Shown: positions 538 through 58,027 of the stretch, one piece after another
Numbering within the stretch: position 1 is the stretch's first letter
Layout of the letters: every line of letters starts with the position of its first letter
Source of the DNA: a virus
Direction: 5' to 3' (one strand)
Virus record (IMG/VR): IMGVR_UViG_3300029258_004661
Location: 1 to 58,937 of that record
DNA: 58,937 nucleotides
The notes under the pieces: generated by a model
Database searches by the model: none
What the model was told of the DNA's origin: nothing
What the model saw: the letters and a program-made list of their open reading frames with translations, nothing else
Translations under genes and position numbers: made by a program

Positions 538-1218
538 TCATACAAACTTAGGCATTTTCCATGTAGGATCTAAAAATTTGCTCGGGTCAGTATAGCGACC
601 CGGCTGAAAATAATTGAAAAAACAATATAGGTTAGGGAGAAACTGAATATCATCCGGGTGTTGAAACTTCAGGCGCTCAGCGTAGTGGCCATCACTGTAA
701 GCATGATCGTACACATCAAAACGATACTTTCTGAATATTTCTCCCTTGATAATATACTGCATGATATCAATGTTGCCGTGGCGCACATCCCACGGTTCAG
801 CAATTCTTAGGGTAGTGGCATGGTGTGGCACCTCTCCCTTTCGATCAGGAACCGTATCACCACGGTACATTGAGAACATGAGAATCTTAGCTGTTTGCTG
901 GCGAATTACATCAAAGAAATTAGGGGAGTACATGTTATCATCGCACATGAAGCCATAATAATCATCGTCAACAATATGGCGCATCTCAATGAAGTCGTTA
1001 ATTTTCTTAAAGGCATTCATACCGGGAGCAAGCTTTGGAACAACTAACGGATGAATCCAATATTTTTGTTTTTTGTGGCCCTTAGCCTGCGCTACCGTAG
1101 GCCATCTTTCTTCAACCGTCACAATGGGATGCCATATTATTCCCATTGGCTCCAGGTAATGAATAAGTGTAGGAGCCAAATAGTCACGATAAAACGGTGT
1201 TAGGACATGAATGTCCAT
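538..1218 (-). CDS. Glycosyltransferase-like protein (GT-A type, probable)
   Basis: 226 residues. The N-terminus MDIHVLTPFYR is a typical first beta strand of a nucleotide-sugar-binding fold, and the acidic stretches VDDDYYGF and MCDDNMYSP near residues 83-97 resemble the DxD metal site of GT-A glycosyltransferases. It closes a cassette that also holds a GT2 (1941) and a GT9-like protein (2665), which supports a role in making or altering a glycan on the virion or the host surface. The start codon overlaps the stop of the small gene at 1218 (shared base), so translation is coupled. I do not recognise an exact family, and substrate is unknown. Confidence 0.6.
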   Translation of the reverse strand: MDIHVLTPFYRDYLAPTLIHYLEPMGIIWHPIVTVEERWPTVAQAKGHKKQKYWIHPLVVPKLAPGMNAFKKINDFIEMRHIVDDDYYGFMCDDNMYSPNFFDVIRQQTAKILMFSMYRGDTVPDRKGEVPHHATTLRIAEPWDVRHGNIDIMQYIIKGEIFRKYRFDVYDHAYSDGHYAERLKFQHPDDIQFLPNLYCFFNYFQPGRYTDPSKFLDPTWKMPKFV

Positions 1219-1433
1219 TACGGCTCCTCCTCCTTAATAGCAATTCCCTCAACGCCCCGCAGGCTGATAGTTGGGTCAACGCAAATCAGGATAGCCTCTA
1301 ATCTGTATCTAGTGATGTCAATGGATATTTTACGGACCTGAAGAGCAGAAGAAATATCGTTGCCATCAGAATCATAAATTTTCGTATCAATTGGGTTACC
1401 AGTATCGTTGACAATTTTTATTCCCTTATTCAT
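1218..1433 (-). CDS. Small conserved-looking phage protein of unknown function
   Basis: 71 residues from the ATG at 1433, chosen because GGAGGAAG lies 9 bases upstream; longer in-frame starts at 1439 and 1451 have poorer spacing. The protein has no Cys, signal peptide or membrane segment and reads as a small beta-rich domain (IKIVNDTGNPIDTKIYDSDG, then ISIDITRYRLEAIL). It overlaps the 3' end of the SpeD homologue by 8 bases and shares a base with the following glycosyltransferase, so it sits inside a tightly coupled cluster. I do not recognise the family. Confidence 0.65.
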   Translation of the reverse strand: MNKGIKIVNDTGNPIDTKIYDSDGNDISSALQVRKISIDITRYRLEAILICVDPTISLRGVEGIAIKEEEP

Positions 1434-1965
1434 TATCATCTTCCTCCACAAACCTGTTAATGTAATGCACGCTTTGTTTTTTATGTGGAATCTCCTTCAA
1501 TAAATACCCTACCGCGGCGCGGGCAATCGCATTACGACCACAGACAAAAATATCTATGGCAATAAGGCCGTCCTCCTGATAAGTGTGACAGGTGACATGG
1601 CTTTCATCAAGGCCAACGTATACGCTGATGCCGTCAGGAGTCTTCTTTGCGGCAGGGTGCAGGCTGGGAGGACCACCTAGCCGGTAACTTACCACCTTCA
1701 TGATTGTTGCCTGTGCTTTGTTGGCTGCTTCCCTCATGATACTGGTGAGTATTTCTTGGTCCCCGAGCAGGCCTGATGGACAGCCAGCAAGGTCCACAAT
1801 TGCGTGCAGGCCACGGGCCTTAACTGTTGTTTCCATACCAAATGCTCCTTTTCTTTTCAAAAGTTTAACAAATAAATGTACGGCAAAATATACCGCACCG
1901 AACACCACAGTAACCGACAGTATAAATACAATTCCCCACCCTAACCAGTATTGCCATGTTGCCAT
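1426..1965 (-). CDS. speD: SpeD-type pyruvoyl decarboxylase homologue (AdoMet decarboxylase family) with N-terminal membrane anchor
   Basis: 179 residues. Residues 9-34 form one hydrophobic helix followed by KLLKRK, so the N-terminus should be membrane-anchored with the catalytic domain in the cytoplasm. Residues 44-170 match the SpeD fold: GLHAIVDLAGC at the start, then LDESHVTCHTYQEDG with the self-cleavage Ser at 122 (future pyruvoyl group), the processing His at 127, and the catalytic Cys at 142 in FVCG. In bacteria this family makes decarboxylated AdoMet for spermidine; relatives have been shown to act on ornithine or arginine instead. An internal ATG at 1836 has its own AAAGGAG site 8 bases upstream and would give a soluble 136-residue SpeD of normal length. 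It overlaps the upstream GT2 by 25 bases. Family call firm, substrate open. Confidence 0.85.
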   Translation of the reverse strand: MATWQYWLGWGIVFILSVTVVFGAVYFAVHLFVKLLKRKGAFGMETTVKARGLHAIVDLAGCPSGLLGDQEILTSIMREAANKAQATIMKVVSYRLGGPPSLHPAAKKTPDGISVYVGLDESHVTCHTYQEDGLIAIDIFVCGRNAIARAAVGYLLKEIPHKKQSVHYINRFVEEDDNE

Positions 1966-2660
1966 GTTTCATCCTCTTTGTGATAGTGTCTAACAATCAA
2001 GGGGTGGACCCAATGAGTAAAACCATGCCCTGTGGCTCTTCTACAGAATTCTTCATCCGAATGATAATGGGTTAATTCAACCTCCCTTGTACCGACTTTT
2101 TTTCTGCCAAGAGCCATTGGGCCAATTTTCTCTATGACTTTTCTTTTAATAAGCACGAAAGCGAAATTGCTCCATTCTGCTTCCCGCGGCTCTTTTATTT
2201 TATCTTTTTTGTGTGCTCCACCGCCATAAGCTCCGCTGCAATACACACTGTCATTACTCTGAAGCGTAACGGGCGTGACCGTGGCAATGGTCGGATCAGT
2301 TTTTGCAAAATTAATGAGGGTCTTAAATGTATTTGGAGTAACAACCTCGGTATCATTATTTACAAGGAAGATATATTCGTTGCTGCTTTTTCTTATGCCC
2401 TCATTAACCGAGCTTGTAAAAAAATGGTTCCATTTATTCAAATATATGCTAATTGCAGGAGAGTCATCATCAAAGTTCCTATTAAAAACATCACCAAGAT
2501 ATTCTCTCAATTCTAGATCCACTTCACCGGCAGTGCTGACAGAGTTGTCAATGATGACAAGTTCGTCGCACGGGCGCATTTGCCCAAGCATTGAATCAAC
2601 ACACGCCCTCAGCCTATGCAATTTGAAATACGATATCAGTATTACGGAGAATGGATCCAT
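1941..2660 (-). CDS. Glycosyltransferase family 2 protein
   Basis: 239 residues with a clear GT2 pattern: N-terminal FSVILISYFKLHRLRACVDSML (first strand and helix), VIIDNS, then the metal-binding acidic motif NNDTE near residues 100-104, and a C-terminal HSDEEFCRRA segment that corresponds to the ED motif. GT2 enzymes move a sugar from a nucleotide donor; soluble ones in phages usually decorate phage proteins, DNA bases or surface glycans. There is no membrane helix. It lies between a GT9-like gene and the SpeD homologue, with a 4-base gap upstream and a 25-base overlap downstream. Acceptor unknown. Confidence 0.85.
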   Translation of the reverse strand: MDPFSVILISYFKLHRLRACVDSMLGQMRPCDELVIIDNSVSTAGEVDLELREYLGDVFNRNFDDDSPAISIYLNKWNHFFTSSVNEGIRKSSNEYIFLVNNDTEVVTPNTFKTLINFAKTDPTIATVTPVTLQSNDSVYCSGAYGGGAHKKDKIKEPREAEWSNFAFVLIKRKVIEKIGPMALGRKKVGTREVELTHYHSDEEFCRRATGHGFTHWVHPLIVRHYHKEDETWQHGNTG

Positions 2661-2664
2661 GATG

Positions 2665-3588
2665 TCACCTCTTGATGAAATGTTCTACGCCATTAACTAT
2701 TTCCTCTGCTGTATAAATTGGCCGCATAATATGCTCACCGCCGTTACGGCGTAAAATATAGCAATCTTCTTCTGGAACATAGGGGCCGCTATTCCAATCG
2801 CCGGGCTGTATGTTATTTCTTGTTGATCTGTCCCTGAGCATGTGGGTTATATCACCCCATATGGCCACTATCTTCTTTTTCAACGCGCTGGCCGCATGGG
2901 TCATGCCTGTATCACCCCCGACGTAAATATCACCCCTGGATATCACTGAGATAGACCTAGACGGCGTTAAATCATATTGGGTTAGGTCAATTATGTTCTT
3001 GAAATCACCCCTCAGAAGTCCATTCTCAGCATCCATACGGCCTATTCGGATAAACAGCCAATCAGGGTACTTTCTGGCCAGCATTTTAATGGCCGCGGCG
3101 TGGTGTTTAAAGTTGTGGTTGCGGCTCCTACTGTAAGGGGCATCTGTAAGAATATGCCACACAACTATACCGGCAGGCGGTCCAACTGCGAAACGGCAAT
3201 AGTGACGCCAGACCATTTCATCAAATTCCGTATCAAGCCATTGCTTGTAGCGATCAGGAATTTCAAGAGTAGGGTAGCGCCCCGTTTTTCTGATCATGTT
3301 CGGGGCATAAACAAACAGATTCCCCCAAGTTGGATAAAGAACCCTGTAGCCAGTTTTATTTTCGGCATCAAGGCAACTGCGGTATCCATCTTCAGGGTAA
3401 AGAAACCCGGCAAATAAATCAGGAGCCCAAAGCTCCATATCAAAGCCTTTTACGGAAGGGTATTTAAAACTCTGGAAGGCGTATAGCTCAAATTCTGGAA
3501 ATTCTGTTTTTACATTTTCTGCAAAATATTTAACAATAATGCGGTCGCCAAGTCTTTCATTAAAGCATACTATCTTCTTGTTTTCCAT
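2665..3588 (-). CDS. GT9-like (heptosyltransferase-type) glycosyltransferase
   Basis: 307 residues from the ATG at 3588, preceded by AAGGGA; the family's first strand (KKIVCFNERLGD) begins directly after this Met. A start at 3606 is also possible. The C-terminal half carries the donor-site signature of ADP-heptose type GT9 enzymes, DIYVGGDTGMTHAASALKKK followed by VAIWG, in a GT-B fold. GT9 proteins usually build lipopolysaccharide core, so here the role may be glycan change on the host or use of a host-like donor. The gene begins inside the 3' end of the radical-SAM-like gene (29-base overlap) and is followed 4 bases later by the GT2, so the three are one coupled unit. Confidence 0.8.
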   Translation of the reverse strand: MENKKIVCFNERLGDRIIVKYFAENVKTEFPEFELYAFQSFKYPSVKGFDMELWAPDLFAGFLYPEDGYRSCLDAENKTGYRVLYPTWGNLFVYAPNMIRKTGRYPTLEIPDRYKQWLDTEFDEMVWRHYCRFAVGPPAGIVVWHILTDAPYSRSRNHNFKHHAAAIKMLARKYPDWLFIRIGRMDAENGLLRGDFKNIIDLTQYDLTPSRSISVISRGDIYVGGDTGMTHAASALKKKIVAIWGDITHMLRDRSTRNNIQPGDWNSGPYVPEEDCYILRRNGGEHIMRPIYTAEEIVNGVEHFIKR

Positions 3589-4534
3589 TGTTGTTTCCCT
3601 TACCATTATTAGAGCCCCTTCTATCTTGGTACTTGGCATCCTTGCGGACAATAACCCGCATGCCGGTTTCAGATGCAATCTGGCTCTTAAGTTCTGAAAC
3701 CTCCTCTTGGCTTGATGCTCCGATTGGGTTAATGAAGACCTCTCTAGCTCCCAACCTTATTAACTCTTTATATAGCGGAAGCTTAACTTCTGATATAACA
3801 TCATTAAAGCCAAAAAGCAAGTTTTTATTGGCCATAACTTTACCTATATCTAATGCTCTTTGCTCGTTAAAGGTAAAGGTTGTGTCACCAAAAAAGAAAT
3901 TTTTTATTCCATATTTATTAACAACTCCAACAACCTCGTTCTTTATTCTGTTGATGCTGAACAGCTTTAATTTTTTACATAGCCATGTAGGGCCAAAAGG
4001 ACTTCCCCGGCTACCCATGATCATTGTGGCTCTCATGCCATCAAGCCTTCGGGCATAGGTATTCATTTCAACAAGATTGCGGGCTGGAAATGGTAAACGA
4101 TTTACATTCCTAACCTCTTCGCTATACACATGCTGAACGCTGTCAACATCGTGGATTATATCCGTAAGAAAATTGGCAACCGAAAGCTCTGCCTCTCCTT
4201 TTATAACAACATTGAAACTTCTTGTGTTTGCATATTTTCCAGTATACTTGCTGGGACCACTACCGCAAACAATAATGGCAGACTTGTTGTTTATTTCCCT
4301 GCACATTCTGGATATTTCAACCGCTACGCTGTAGCTGTTTATGTCGGCATATATAACGTATAGCGGACAACTTCCAAAGCCCCAATGATTCCTGTTAATA
4401 CCATTAAGGTCGTTAACCCTGACGGCATAATTTTCCTTTTGGAATATCGGGGCAATCTGTAGCAAAAACAGCGGCGGATCAAGTCTACTTGAAATATTAT
4501 CGGTAAAAGGAATGTTAATAAGTTCAACTCTCAT
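3560..4534 (-). CDS. B12-binding/radical-SAM-like protein lacking the iron-sulphur cysteines
   Basis: 324 residues from the ATG at 4534 (GAGGCGAG upstream). Residues 1-130 match the cobalamin-binding Rossmann domain of BchE-type proteins (PPLFLLQIAPIFQKENYAVRVNDLN, then IIVCGSGPSKYTGKYA and VVIKGEAELSVANFL). Residues 145-270 match the start of a radical SAM barrel: LPFPARNLVEMNTY, GSRGSPFGPTWLC, KYGIKNFFFGDTTFT. In active enzymes the GSRG is followed by CxxxCxxC; here those positions are Ser178, Pro182 and Leu185, so no 4Fe-4S cluster can form in the usual way. The domain is also short and ends in an Asn/Gly-rich tail. It sits in the glycosyltransferase cassette. It may be a non-redox binding protein, a scaffold or a decaying gene. 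Confidence 0.75.
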   Translation of the reverse strand: MRVELINIPFTDNISSRLDPPLFLLQIAPIFQKENYAVRVNDLNGINRNHWGFGSCPLYVIYADINSYSVAVEISRMCREINNKSAIIVCGSGPSKYTGKYANTRSFNVVIKGEAELSVANFLTDIIHDVDSVQHVYSEEVRNVNRLPFPARNLVEMNTYARRLDGMRATMIMGSRGSPFGPTWLCKKLKLFSINRIKNEVVGVVNKYGIKNFFFGDTTFTFNEQRALDIGKVMANKNLLFGFNDVISEVKLPLYKELIRLGAREVFINPIGASSQEEVSELKSQIASETGMRVIVRKDAKYQDRRGSNNGKGNNNGKQEDSML

Positions 4535-4548
4535 TCTGTATTCTCGCC

Positions 4549-4818
4549 TCAAACATAAATTATTTTTTCGCCCGTATTTTTCTTTGACCCCCTGCCGATA
4601 ATTTTAGCTGTTTCCTTATTGCCAGTAACCATGCTAATGTTGACCCGTTCGTTTCTCTTAAAGGTCATGTCTGTTGAATTGATTGCACTCTTTTTTATTG
4701 CCCCGGTTCTCATGATAATATTATAGGTTCCATCAGGGTTGCGGGAATGTATTGTAGCATCCTGAATATTATCAACTTGGGCCTTCTTTGATATCTCCTT
4801 TATTATCTTAAGCATCAT
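4549..4818 (-). CDS. Small OB-fold-like protein, possibly baseplate/tail associated
   Basis: 89 residues, no Cys. After a helical N-terminus (LKIIKEISKKAQVD) it shows alternating strands (DATIHSRNPDGTYNIIMRTG, FKRNERVNISMVTGNKETAKIIGRG) with the pattern of small beta barrels used as hub or spike pieces in phage tails. Its start overlaps the stop of the 4815 gene by 4 bases (ATGA-type coupling). Position at the end of the tail/receptor operon supports a virion role, but no family is recognised. Confidence 0.5.
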   Translation of the reverse strand: MMLKIIKEISKKAQVDNIQDATIHSRNPDGTYNIIMRTGAIKKSAINSTDMTFKRNERVNISMVTGNKETAKIIGRGSKKNTGEKIIYV

Positions 4819-49514: not shown

Positions 49515-49859
49515 CTACGATGGTACTGAAACCATGCTGTCCCTATCTAAAACTCTTGATGAAACAATCTTGCAATTAAGTTTTTCAGGAATGGCTCCCA
49601 GCATTCTATCAATAGCACTGGTATCGCCACAACAAAAGAAATCGAGTTGTAAATCATGTTTCTCTGGCCACGTGCTAAGAATAATATGGCTCTCTGCCAA
49701 TATGGCAACGGCGGTTATGCCGTCTGGGAAAAACTCATATGAAATCGCCCTGCGAACATGCAACCCGCAATGTTCAATAAGGTCAAACATTGCACTTTCG
49801 AAAGCCTTACTGGTTAAATGGAAAACACCAATGCTTGCCCGAACATGAAGTGACCGCAT
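49515..49859 (-). CDS. Second SpeD-type pyruvoyl decarboxylase homologue
   Basis: 114 residues from the ATG at 49859 (GGGGGAG 6 bases upstream; a start 5 codons earlier exists). Overall length and order match single-domain bacterial SpeD: LHVRASIGV, SYEFFPDGITAVAILAESH, STWPEKHDLQLDFFCCGD. Self-cleavage Ser57 (in AESH) and catalytic Cys77 are kept, but the processing histidine that normally stands five residues after the cleavage Ser is Ser62 (ESHIILSTW instead of ESHISIHTW). So cleavage to the pyruvoyl form may be slow or absent. It is the last gene before the terminator. A separate copy with the His lies at 1426. Substrate unknown. Confidence 0.82.
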   Translation of the reverse strand: MRSLHVRASIGVFHLTSKAFESAMFDLIEHCGLHVRRAISYEFFPDGITAVAILAESHIILSTWPEKHDLQLDFFCCGDTSAIDRMLGAIPEKLNCKIVSSRVLDRDSMVSVPS

Positions 49860-49881
49860 GCAACACTCCCCCATAGGGCAC

Positions 49882-56749: not shown

Positions 56750-57964
56750 TTAAACTATTACGGCTTTACTCTTTTTAAGGACAAATTTAATACAAGCTTT
56801 ATTGTAGGCGTTTGTTTTCTCTAAGACCTTCTTATTACATATATACATACCGGAAACCCTACCTTCCGCGTCTATATACCTGTTTAGCTCTTTACCAAGG
56901 TAACGGCAATCTTTACAAAACCCAACCTTATAGTTTACACCTATCGCTTCAAGTACCTTTCCCATACCAAGCTTTTCTATACAATACCAATAATGTTTTG
57001 GGTGAGTATGATACAGTCGCTGAAATCTATTTTCTCCATACTCAAGATGCACGCCGAAGGCACAAAATATACAACCTGTATTAGCATACCCCATATCGTA
57101 TATTTCCGAGTAATCAAGATTAAATCTATTAATATACTCTACAACATCCTGCTCCACCCAAAAAGCAATAGGGGTACTGGTAGGTCTGTAGTTACGGTAA
57201 ACATTACATCCATTCATCAGATAGTTAGTAGTCCTCAGGCGAGAGTCATCCGCCATCGTCCCGATTATACCCGCCCTGTTATTCTCCTTAATATACTTCA
57301 TAATCGGAGCCTTCTTCATTACCATACAACACCTATCTGATATCTTAAAATCTGCATCAATTAAATACTTCCACTTCTCCGGTAGCCGACCCCGACCAAA
57401 CTTATCCCCATACAACCTTTTCTTAAGTACCTTCTCGCTACGAGTATTCTGAATATCATACAACTTAGCAGCACTCTCCTTACTAATAATCGGATACCCA
57501 TATTTCTCTATAACCTCAAAGAAAGGCATCTTCGGCCTCAACCACGTTACGTTCTCTACTCGTTTAACAAATTTTCTTATTTCAGGAAATTCCAGTCCAG
57601 TATCTACAAACACCGCCGGGACCTCAGGATACATACTTCTTACTAAATGTAACAAGGCCGTACTATCCTTACCCCCAGAGAACGATACATAAATGCGCCC
57701 GTTCCAATGCCTATACCACTCTTCTATACGATCCTTACTCATTCTTATCTTAATCTCTAACGGCAACCCCTGCCGCTCTTTCAATTCCCACCTCTTATCC
57801 TCTGCATCTTTTATATTTCCACCTCTAACCTCTCCCGGCAACCGCCTATTCTTATCCAGCTTCATTTTCCTCTTATCTCTCCTCTTCATAAACTCCCTAA
57901 CCACCCTATCTTCTTCTCTCCCCTTATCTACAACTTCCTTTCTCTTTCTCTTCTCTTTCTCCAC
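56750..57964 (-). CDS. Phosphoadenosine-phosphosulphate-reductase-family PP-loop protein
   Basis: 404 residues from the GTG at 57964 (GGAGGAG upstream); a GTG 7 codons earlier is possible. Basic, charged N-terminal arm to residue about 75, then the PP-loop SFSGGKDS at 94-101, FVDTGLEFPE, and Cys groups ISDRCCMVMKK and NTGCIFCAFG, which in this family hold a 4Fe-4S cluster. ADDSRLR and IAFWVEQDVVEYI are also standard. A late CKDCRYLGK adds two more Cys. Phage members are linked to sulphur chemistry, including nucleobase or DNA modification, but no dnd or tRNA partner genes are visible. Nearest gene to the repeat-rich right end and first transcribed from 58028. Confidence 0.85.
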   Translation of the reverse strand: MEKEKRKRKEVVDKGREEDRVVREFMKRRDKRKMKLDKNRRLPGEVRGGNIKDAEDKRWELKERQGLPLEIKIRMSKDRIEEWYRHWNGRIYVSFSGGKDSTALLHLVRSMYPEVPAVFVDTGLEFPEIRKFVKRVENVTWLRPKMPFFEVIEKYGYPIISKESAAKLYDIQNTRSEKVLKKRLYGDKFGRGRLPEKWKYLIDADFKISDRCCMVMKKAPIMKYIKENNRAGIIGTMADDSRLRTTNYLMNGCNVYRNYRPTSTPIAFWVEQDVVEYINRFNLDYSEIYDMGYANTGCIFCAFGVHLEYGENRFQRLYHTHPKHYWYCIEKLGMGKVLEAIGVNYKVGFCKDCRYLGKELNRYIDAEGRVSGMYICNKKVLEKTNAYNKACIKFVLKKSKAVIV

Positions 57965-58027
57965 GAAACTCTCCTCCGCAAACACAACTTCCAGGGCGCA
58001 TTAAATATATGTCTGTAATAATGAAAT

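Follow-up and report, generated by a model that had tools for sequence, protein, structure and literature searches.

A phage gene joining a predicted N-terminal membrane helix to a SpeD-fold domain with marks of SpeD-derived arginine decarboxylases

Introduction

T. maritima AdoMetDC (1TLU, 1VR7), with its residues S63, H68 and C83 and its TWPE motif, provides the structural reference for the gene described here. Every described SpeD-fold enzyme that we could find is small and soluble, and the literature searched yielded no paper on a membrane-anchored SpeD. A pyruvoyl decarboxylase that does work at the membrane is phosphatidylserine decarboxylase, the fold of which is unrelated to that of the protein considered here.

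The AdoMetDC fold has also given rise to SpeDA, the pyruvoyl L-arginine decarboxylase of the Gimesia maris type. According to the study on such enzymes (PMC10407285), a Pro that is completely conserved in bona fide AdoMetDC, but not in SpeDA, discriminates between the two; proven arginine decarboxylases, including that of G. maris, are laid out in synteny with speY and speB; the SpeDC ornithine decarboxylase has diagnostic Gln, Thr, Phe and Tyr positions; and H68 is reported to be essential for self-processing. Phages carry class 1b SpeD homologues as auxiliary genes (AdoMetDC, ADC and ODC; HTVC201P pelagiphage, S-PM2), with products of about 110–130 aa devoid of a membrane helix, and phage AdoMetDCs unaccompanied by SpeE are both common and proven (PMC9992855). 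Finally, AdoMetDCs with a dead partner are known (PMC5201418; PMC10407285), namely trypanosome AdoMetDC with its prozyme and V. vadensis SpeD with its degraded SpeD2 half.

The gene termed SpeD1 here lies in a viral window, i.e., the whole stretch of 58,937 nt analyzed (IMGVR_UViG_3300029258_004661). It resembles SpeDA (PMC10407285) in fold, processing residues, the LDESH..HTY motif, Pro loss and loop insertion, and its phage likewise lacks a spermidine synthase partner. Unlike SpeDA, it has a fused membrane helix, a longer loop and Gln in place of Ala/Ser, and it is located in a phage glycan-type cluster without speY or speB. Compared with the known phage homologues, it differs by the helix and by the presence of two SpeDs per phage, one of them without His68; compared with T. 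maritima AdoMetDC, by the helix, the loop insertion and the loss of TWPE. Three features set the phage enzyme apart from the known kind: its predicted anchor, a probable change of substrate to arginine and a paralogue that is probably processing-dead.

Results

SpeD1 is encoded by a single open reading frame, the elements of which are as follows (window coordinates):

1426–1965, minus strand: SpeD1 coding sequence, N-terminal membrane helix plus AdoMetDC/SpeD-fold domain; single ORF, 179 aa, ATG start
1837–1965, minus strand: codons 1–43, predicted transmembrane helix (residues 3–39) and basic linker KLLKRKGAFG, from hydropathy, codon score and AlphaFold2
1642–1677, minus strand: GGPPSLHPAAKK, 12 residues that AdoMetDC lacks, inserted where SpeDA-type proteins have a shorter insertion
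1600–1602, minus strand: Ser122 (S63), expected self-cleavage and pyruvoyl site; S63 is conserved in 213 of 213 SpeDs
1585–1587, minus strand: His127 (H68), from alignment and motif counts
1576–1578, minus strand: Gln130, replacing Pro P71 of TWPE, from motif counts
1540–1542, minus strand: Cys142 (C83), from alignment and motif counts

Residues 54–171 match the PF02675 profile (6e-25; 88 bits against a cut-off of 25), and the protein also scores above the cut-off of TIGR03330, the AdoMetDC equivalog. Ser122, His127 and Cys142, which the sequence-only reading had named as the catalytic set, are all at the positions it gave and align with S63, H68 and C83 of the T. maritima enzyme. A structure model (AlphaFold2 on a 58-row alignment, mean pLDDT 90) comprises a helix spanning residues 3–39, a low-confidence linker and, from about residue 52, a confident AdoMetDC fold that superimposes on 1VR7 with a Z score of 19.7 and an rmsd of 1.6 over 117 residues (Z 19.6–19.7 for 1TLU and 1VR7). 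As a second, longer assembly (96,332 bases) is 100% identical to the window DNA over 7965 bases, an error of a single assembly can be ruled out as the source of the fusion. In the viral, phage, plasmid and genome collections, the only close relatives were identical copies, all others showing at most 38% identity; with all copies being 100% identical, there is no variation by which selection on the helix could be measured.

The N-terminal part is more hydrophobic than expected by chance for an open frame: the best 19-residue Kyte–Doolittle mean within residues 1–43 is 2.44, a value reached in just 3 of 367 ATG-started open 43-codon stretches in non-coding frames. Codon use over this region favors the SpeD1 frame, which scores −0.7, the two alternative frames scoring −15.6 and −6.9. 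Residues 1–33 are free of Lys and Arg while four such residues occur between positions 34 and 39, for which reason an N-out/C-in topology with the enzyme domain facing the cytosol is to be expected; topology and membrane insertion are predictions. The strong hydrophobicity noted earlier was borne out, but the length of 43 residues then assigned to the helix was slightly generous, as about 37 residues of helix are followed by the basic linker. The further claim that ordinary SpeDs lack such a helix agrees with our survey of viral contigs, phages and bacterial/archaeal genomes, in which 268 distinct SpeD domains were collected and none of the other 267 has a comparable N-terminal helix: L057 displays only a weak hydrophobic stretch when read from a TTG upstream of the normal start, and L236–L239 are other fusions. 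A tblastn search of 50,697 phage records with the 43-aa segment gave no homologue, and a PHROGs search with the helix returned only chance-level matches to short proteins of no assigned function.

The question of which product or products are made hinges on two candidate starts within the same frame:

1972–1977, minus strand: Shine–Dalgarno (SD)-like AGAGGA before the ATG at 1965; duplex −5.8 kcal/mol
1845–1851, minus strand: internal SD-like AAAGGAG, 8 nt before the ATG at 1836; duplex −7.9 kcal/mol
1834–1836, minus strand: internal ATG, Met44, the usual SpeD start position, from alignment with SpeDs starting there

The internal AAAGGAG at 8-base spacing ahead of the usual SpeD Met is present as originally noticed, and its anti-SD duplex is near the median of phage gene starts (−8.4 kcal/mol) and stronger than that of the upstream site. 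Of 280 internal in-frame ATGs, 9 have a site as strong as AAAGGAG in front of them, and 2 have AAGGAG; among synonymous recodings of residues 34–43 (KLLKRKGAFG), 22% score as well as the native sequence. The internal SD is thus only mildly unusual and, taken alone, weak evidence. A second start at Met44 is plausible judging from the sequence context, and some soluble enzyme arising from it is conceivable, if on the doubtful side. Synthesis of the anchored form, on the other hand, we regard as probable.

One rival reading, the one put forward from the sequence alone, is a dual-start gene that yields anchored and soluble enzymes, both in functional amounts. Two well-spaced SDs and an internal Met exactly at the beginning of an ordinary SpeD would be in line with such an arrangement, but the ease with which synonymous codons recreate the internal SD and the lack of any relative with the same in-frame organization weaken it, and we consider it a tentative possibility that falls short of an even chance.

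Alternatively, the gene might start at Met44, in which case its sole product would be a soluble SpeD of 136 aa and the open frame ahead of it a fortuitous read-in through a stem-loop-bearing spacer. Beyond the stronger internal SD, this is suggested by all other SpeDs beginning near this position, by the helix having no database match and by a terminator-like stem at 1878–1898. The T tract of this stem is poor, however, and the start region folds no better than its shuffles (z −0.79), a value that also led to rejection of a structured leader RNA. With Met44 as the start, 104 bases following the upstream gene would be non-coding, which is possible but exceeds most gaps here. The rarity of such hydrophobicity in an open 43-codon frame, the codon score being best in the helix frame and the SD of the upstream ATG likewise argue against a Met44-only start, which we deem unlikely.

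One further point in its favor comes from the nearest viral relative of SpeD1 (L182, IMGVR_UViG_3300009285_007477; 34% identity, E 5e-20), which shares the C-terminal RF.EE and has a hydrophobic ORF out of frame with SpeD:

L182, 3831–4007: 58-aa ORF with hydrophobic start, in another frame than SpeD and immediately upstream of it
L182, 4013–4402: SpeD gene of the SpeDA type, starting at ATG 4013

The 58-aa ORF ends in AGGAGG, 8 nt before the SpeD ATG. Homologues in which the helix forms a separate gene in another frame had been named in the sequence-only reading as evidence against its proposal; L182 comes close to such a case by its arrangement, although no similarity between its 58-aa peptide and the SpeD1 helix was detectable by alignment. 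The comparison suggests that the SpeD1 anchor arose through the in-frame joining of a small upstream hydrophobic ORF, or leader, to a SpeD already equipped with an SD. The L182 SpeD is also preceded by APS-kinase-like and sulfotransferase-like genes.

As to the substrate, we infer that the discriminating Pro is P71 of TWPE. SpeD1, with Gln130 at this position, would then lack the residue that marks bona fide AdoMetDC, and it retains the processing residues, the combination seen in SpeDA. Its further SpeDA marks (LDESH, HTY, a Y-x-[FL]-G loop insertion and a C-terminal RF) are common to L100, L111, L142, L161, L182 and others. In a group of 12 proteins (L100, L111, L142, L161, L182, L187–L193) we found LDESH, [T/C/S]Y and, instead of Pro, Ala/Ser; their loops also carry an insertion where SpeD1 has its 12-residue one. 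SpeD1 departs from this clade by the greater length of the insertion and by its Gln. Four bacterial members adjoin deoxyhypusine-synthase-like (speY) and/or arginase-family (speB) genes. In a tree computed without the long CPR branches, SpeD1 was sister to this speY/speB-linked clade (support 92/89); with all rows included, the SpeDA grouping had no resolution, and upon removal of the catalytic block it was neither rejected (p-AU 0.66) nor demonstrated. Given the motif, the synteny of the relatives and a tree that varies with the row set, arginine is favored without being settled, and from these sequence marks we lean slightly towards it over AdoMet. The list of AdoMet, ornithine and arginine initially proposed as substrates to be assayed would accordingly narrow towards the last.

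A true AdoMetDC, diverged and anchored, that feeds a host spermidine synthase as in cyanophages, appears rather improbable to us. The TIGR03330 score and the proven phage AdoMetDCs without SpeE (PMC9992855) are compatible with it, but the Pro described as completely conserved among the proven enzymes (PMC10407285; P71 by our assignment) is lost, and both the SpeDA-like motif and the sisterhood in the reduced tree point elsewhere. No spermidine synthase was recognizable in the phage records, in line with an enzyme other than AdoMetDC; this is a limited argument, since many phages with a true AdoMetDC lack one as well. Against the arginine reading, no arginase-family gene was found in the 96 kb phage record, and no member of the speY, speB or aguA/aguB families among the scanned SpeD1 neighbors, such neighbors being a feature of bacterial/archaeal clusters that is not required of phage copies.

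The window also encodes a second homologue:

49515–49874, minus strand: SpeD2, 119 aa, or 114 aa from an ATG with better SD at 49859; PF02675 1.4e-18

Structure prediction and comparison indicate that SpeD2 retains the AdoMetDC fold. It has kept S63 and C83, but H68 is replaced with Ser, a loss found only in this protein among the 213 SpeDs compared. As H68 is reported to be essential for self-processing (PMC10407285), SpeD2 is probably unprocessed. By analogy, a prozyme-like role is possible, and SpeD1 and SpeD2 might then form a heterodimer with SpeD2 as the dead activator subunit, in the manner of the prozyme in trypanosomes or of the degraded part of the V. vadensis fusion. Its unique His loss on a preserved fold, the co-occurrence of both genes in two of the phage records and the known dead-partner systems would fit; yet the genes are 48 kb apart, with SpeD2 in the replication/packaging region, and identity between the two proteins is low (31% over 67 aa). 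Their association is putative, and unlike the trypanosome and V. vadensis systems it would join the products of two distant genes, so that we rate a heterodimer as quite unlikely. A phage with two SpeDs, only one of which has the processing His, would offer a natural prokaryotic case informing the origin of AdoMetDC pairs with one active site.

Discussion

The DNA itself shows that a hydrophobic helix is fused in frame to the domain, that the residues for processing and catalysis are intact and that the motif is SpeDA-like. Building on these features, we propose that SpeD1 is a membrane-anchored, cytosol-facing pyruvoyl decarboxylase with the AdoMetDC/SpeD fold that processes itself and probably acts on arginine, a reading that as a whole we give about an even chance. 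Its helix would insert as a single pass in N-out/C-in orientation, as the charge pattern implies. The conserved residues suggest that the domain would dimerize and cleave itself between Glu121 and Ser122, giving rise to a membrane-held beta chain (residues 1–121) and to an alpha chain on which the pyruvoyl group would reside. If the SpeDA marks are a reliable guide, the processed enzyme would then turn L-arginine into agmatine near the membrane. A SpeD at the inner membrane, if true, could provide a local supply of agmatine or polyamines, or act on a membrane-linked substrate, which is a testable idea. The more elaborate view of a tethered SpeD-derived arginine decarboxylase, in anchored and soluble forms, controlled by a processing-dead SpeD2 as a membrane-located phage analogue of the trypanosome prozyme, strikes us as very improbable.

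A related issue is the genomic setting of SpeD1, which follows glycosyltransferases of families 2 and 9:

1941–2660, minus strand: family-2 glycosyltransferase upstream of SpeD1; PF00535 3e-12; the 25 bases at its end are shared with the helix codons

Past the window start, the longer record carries radical SAM/SPASM proteins, methyltransferases and a family-1 glycosyltransferase. These surroundings resemble a surface-glycan or metabolite-modification cluster, and, speculatively, the decarboxylase may serve such a pathway rather than bulk polyamine supply.

Several observations were made in passing. SpeD1 lies amid a large gene cluster (window 538–4552 plus L246, 149–7015) made up of glycosyltransferases, methyltransferases and two radical SAM/SPASM proteins. 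Within it, window 538–1218 resembles L246, 149–808, with a similar N-terminus and a Pfam match in neither. An HNH/AP2 homing-endonuclease-like gene lies between the two similar glycan-cluster genes (L003, 7441–8058), and the far end of the window encodes a 411-aa protein with a PAPS-reductase domain (56750–57985, minus strand). SpeD domains are also found in other enlarged proteins: the SpeD of Bacillus phage vB_BcoS-136 is 357 aa long, with additional sequence at both its N- and C-terminal ends (L009, 1258–2331), and genomes from the same phylum as L132 (Patescibacteria group; L234–L241, L244) contain frames of ~440–480 aa with a SpeD-like domain. The latter represent a different fusion family, with the motif SNSN..HTWPE, in which E62 and H64 are replaced with N.
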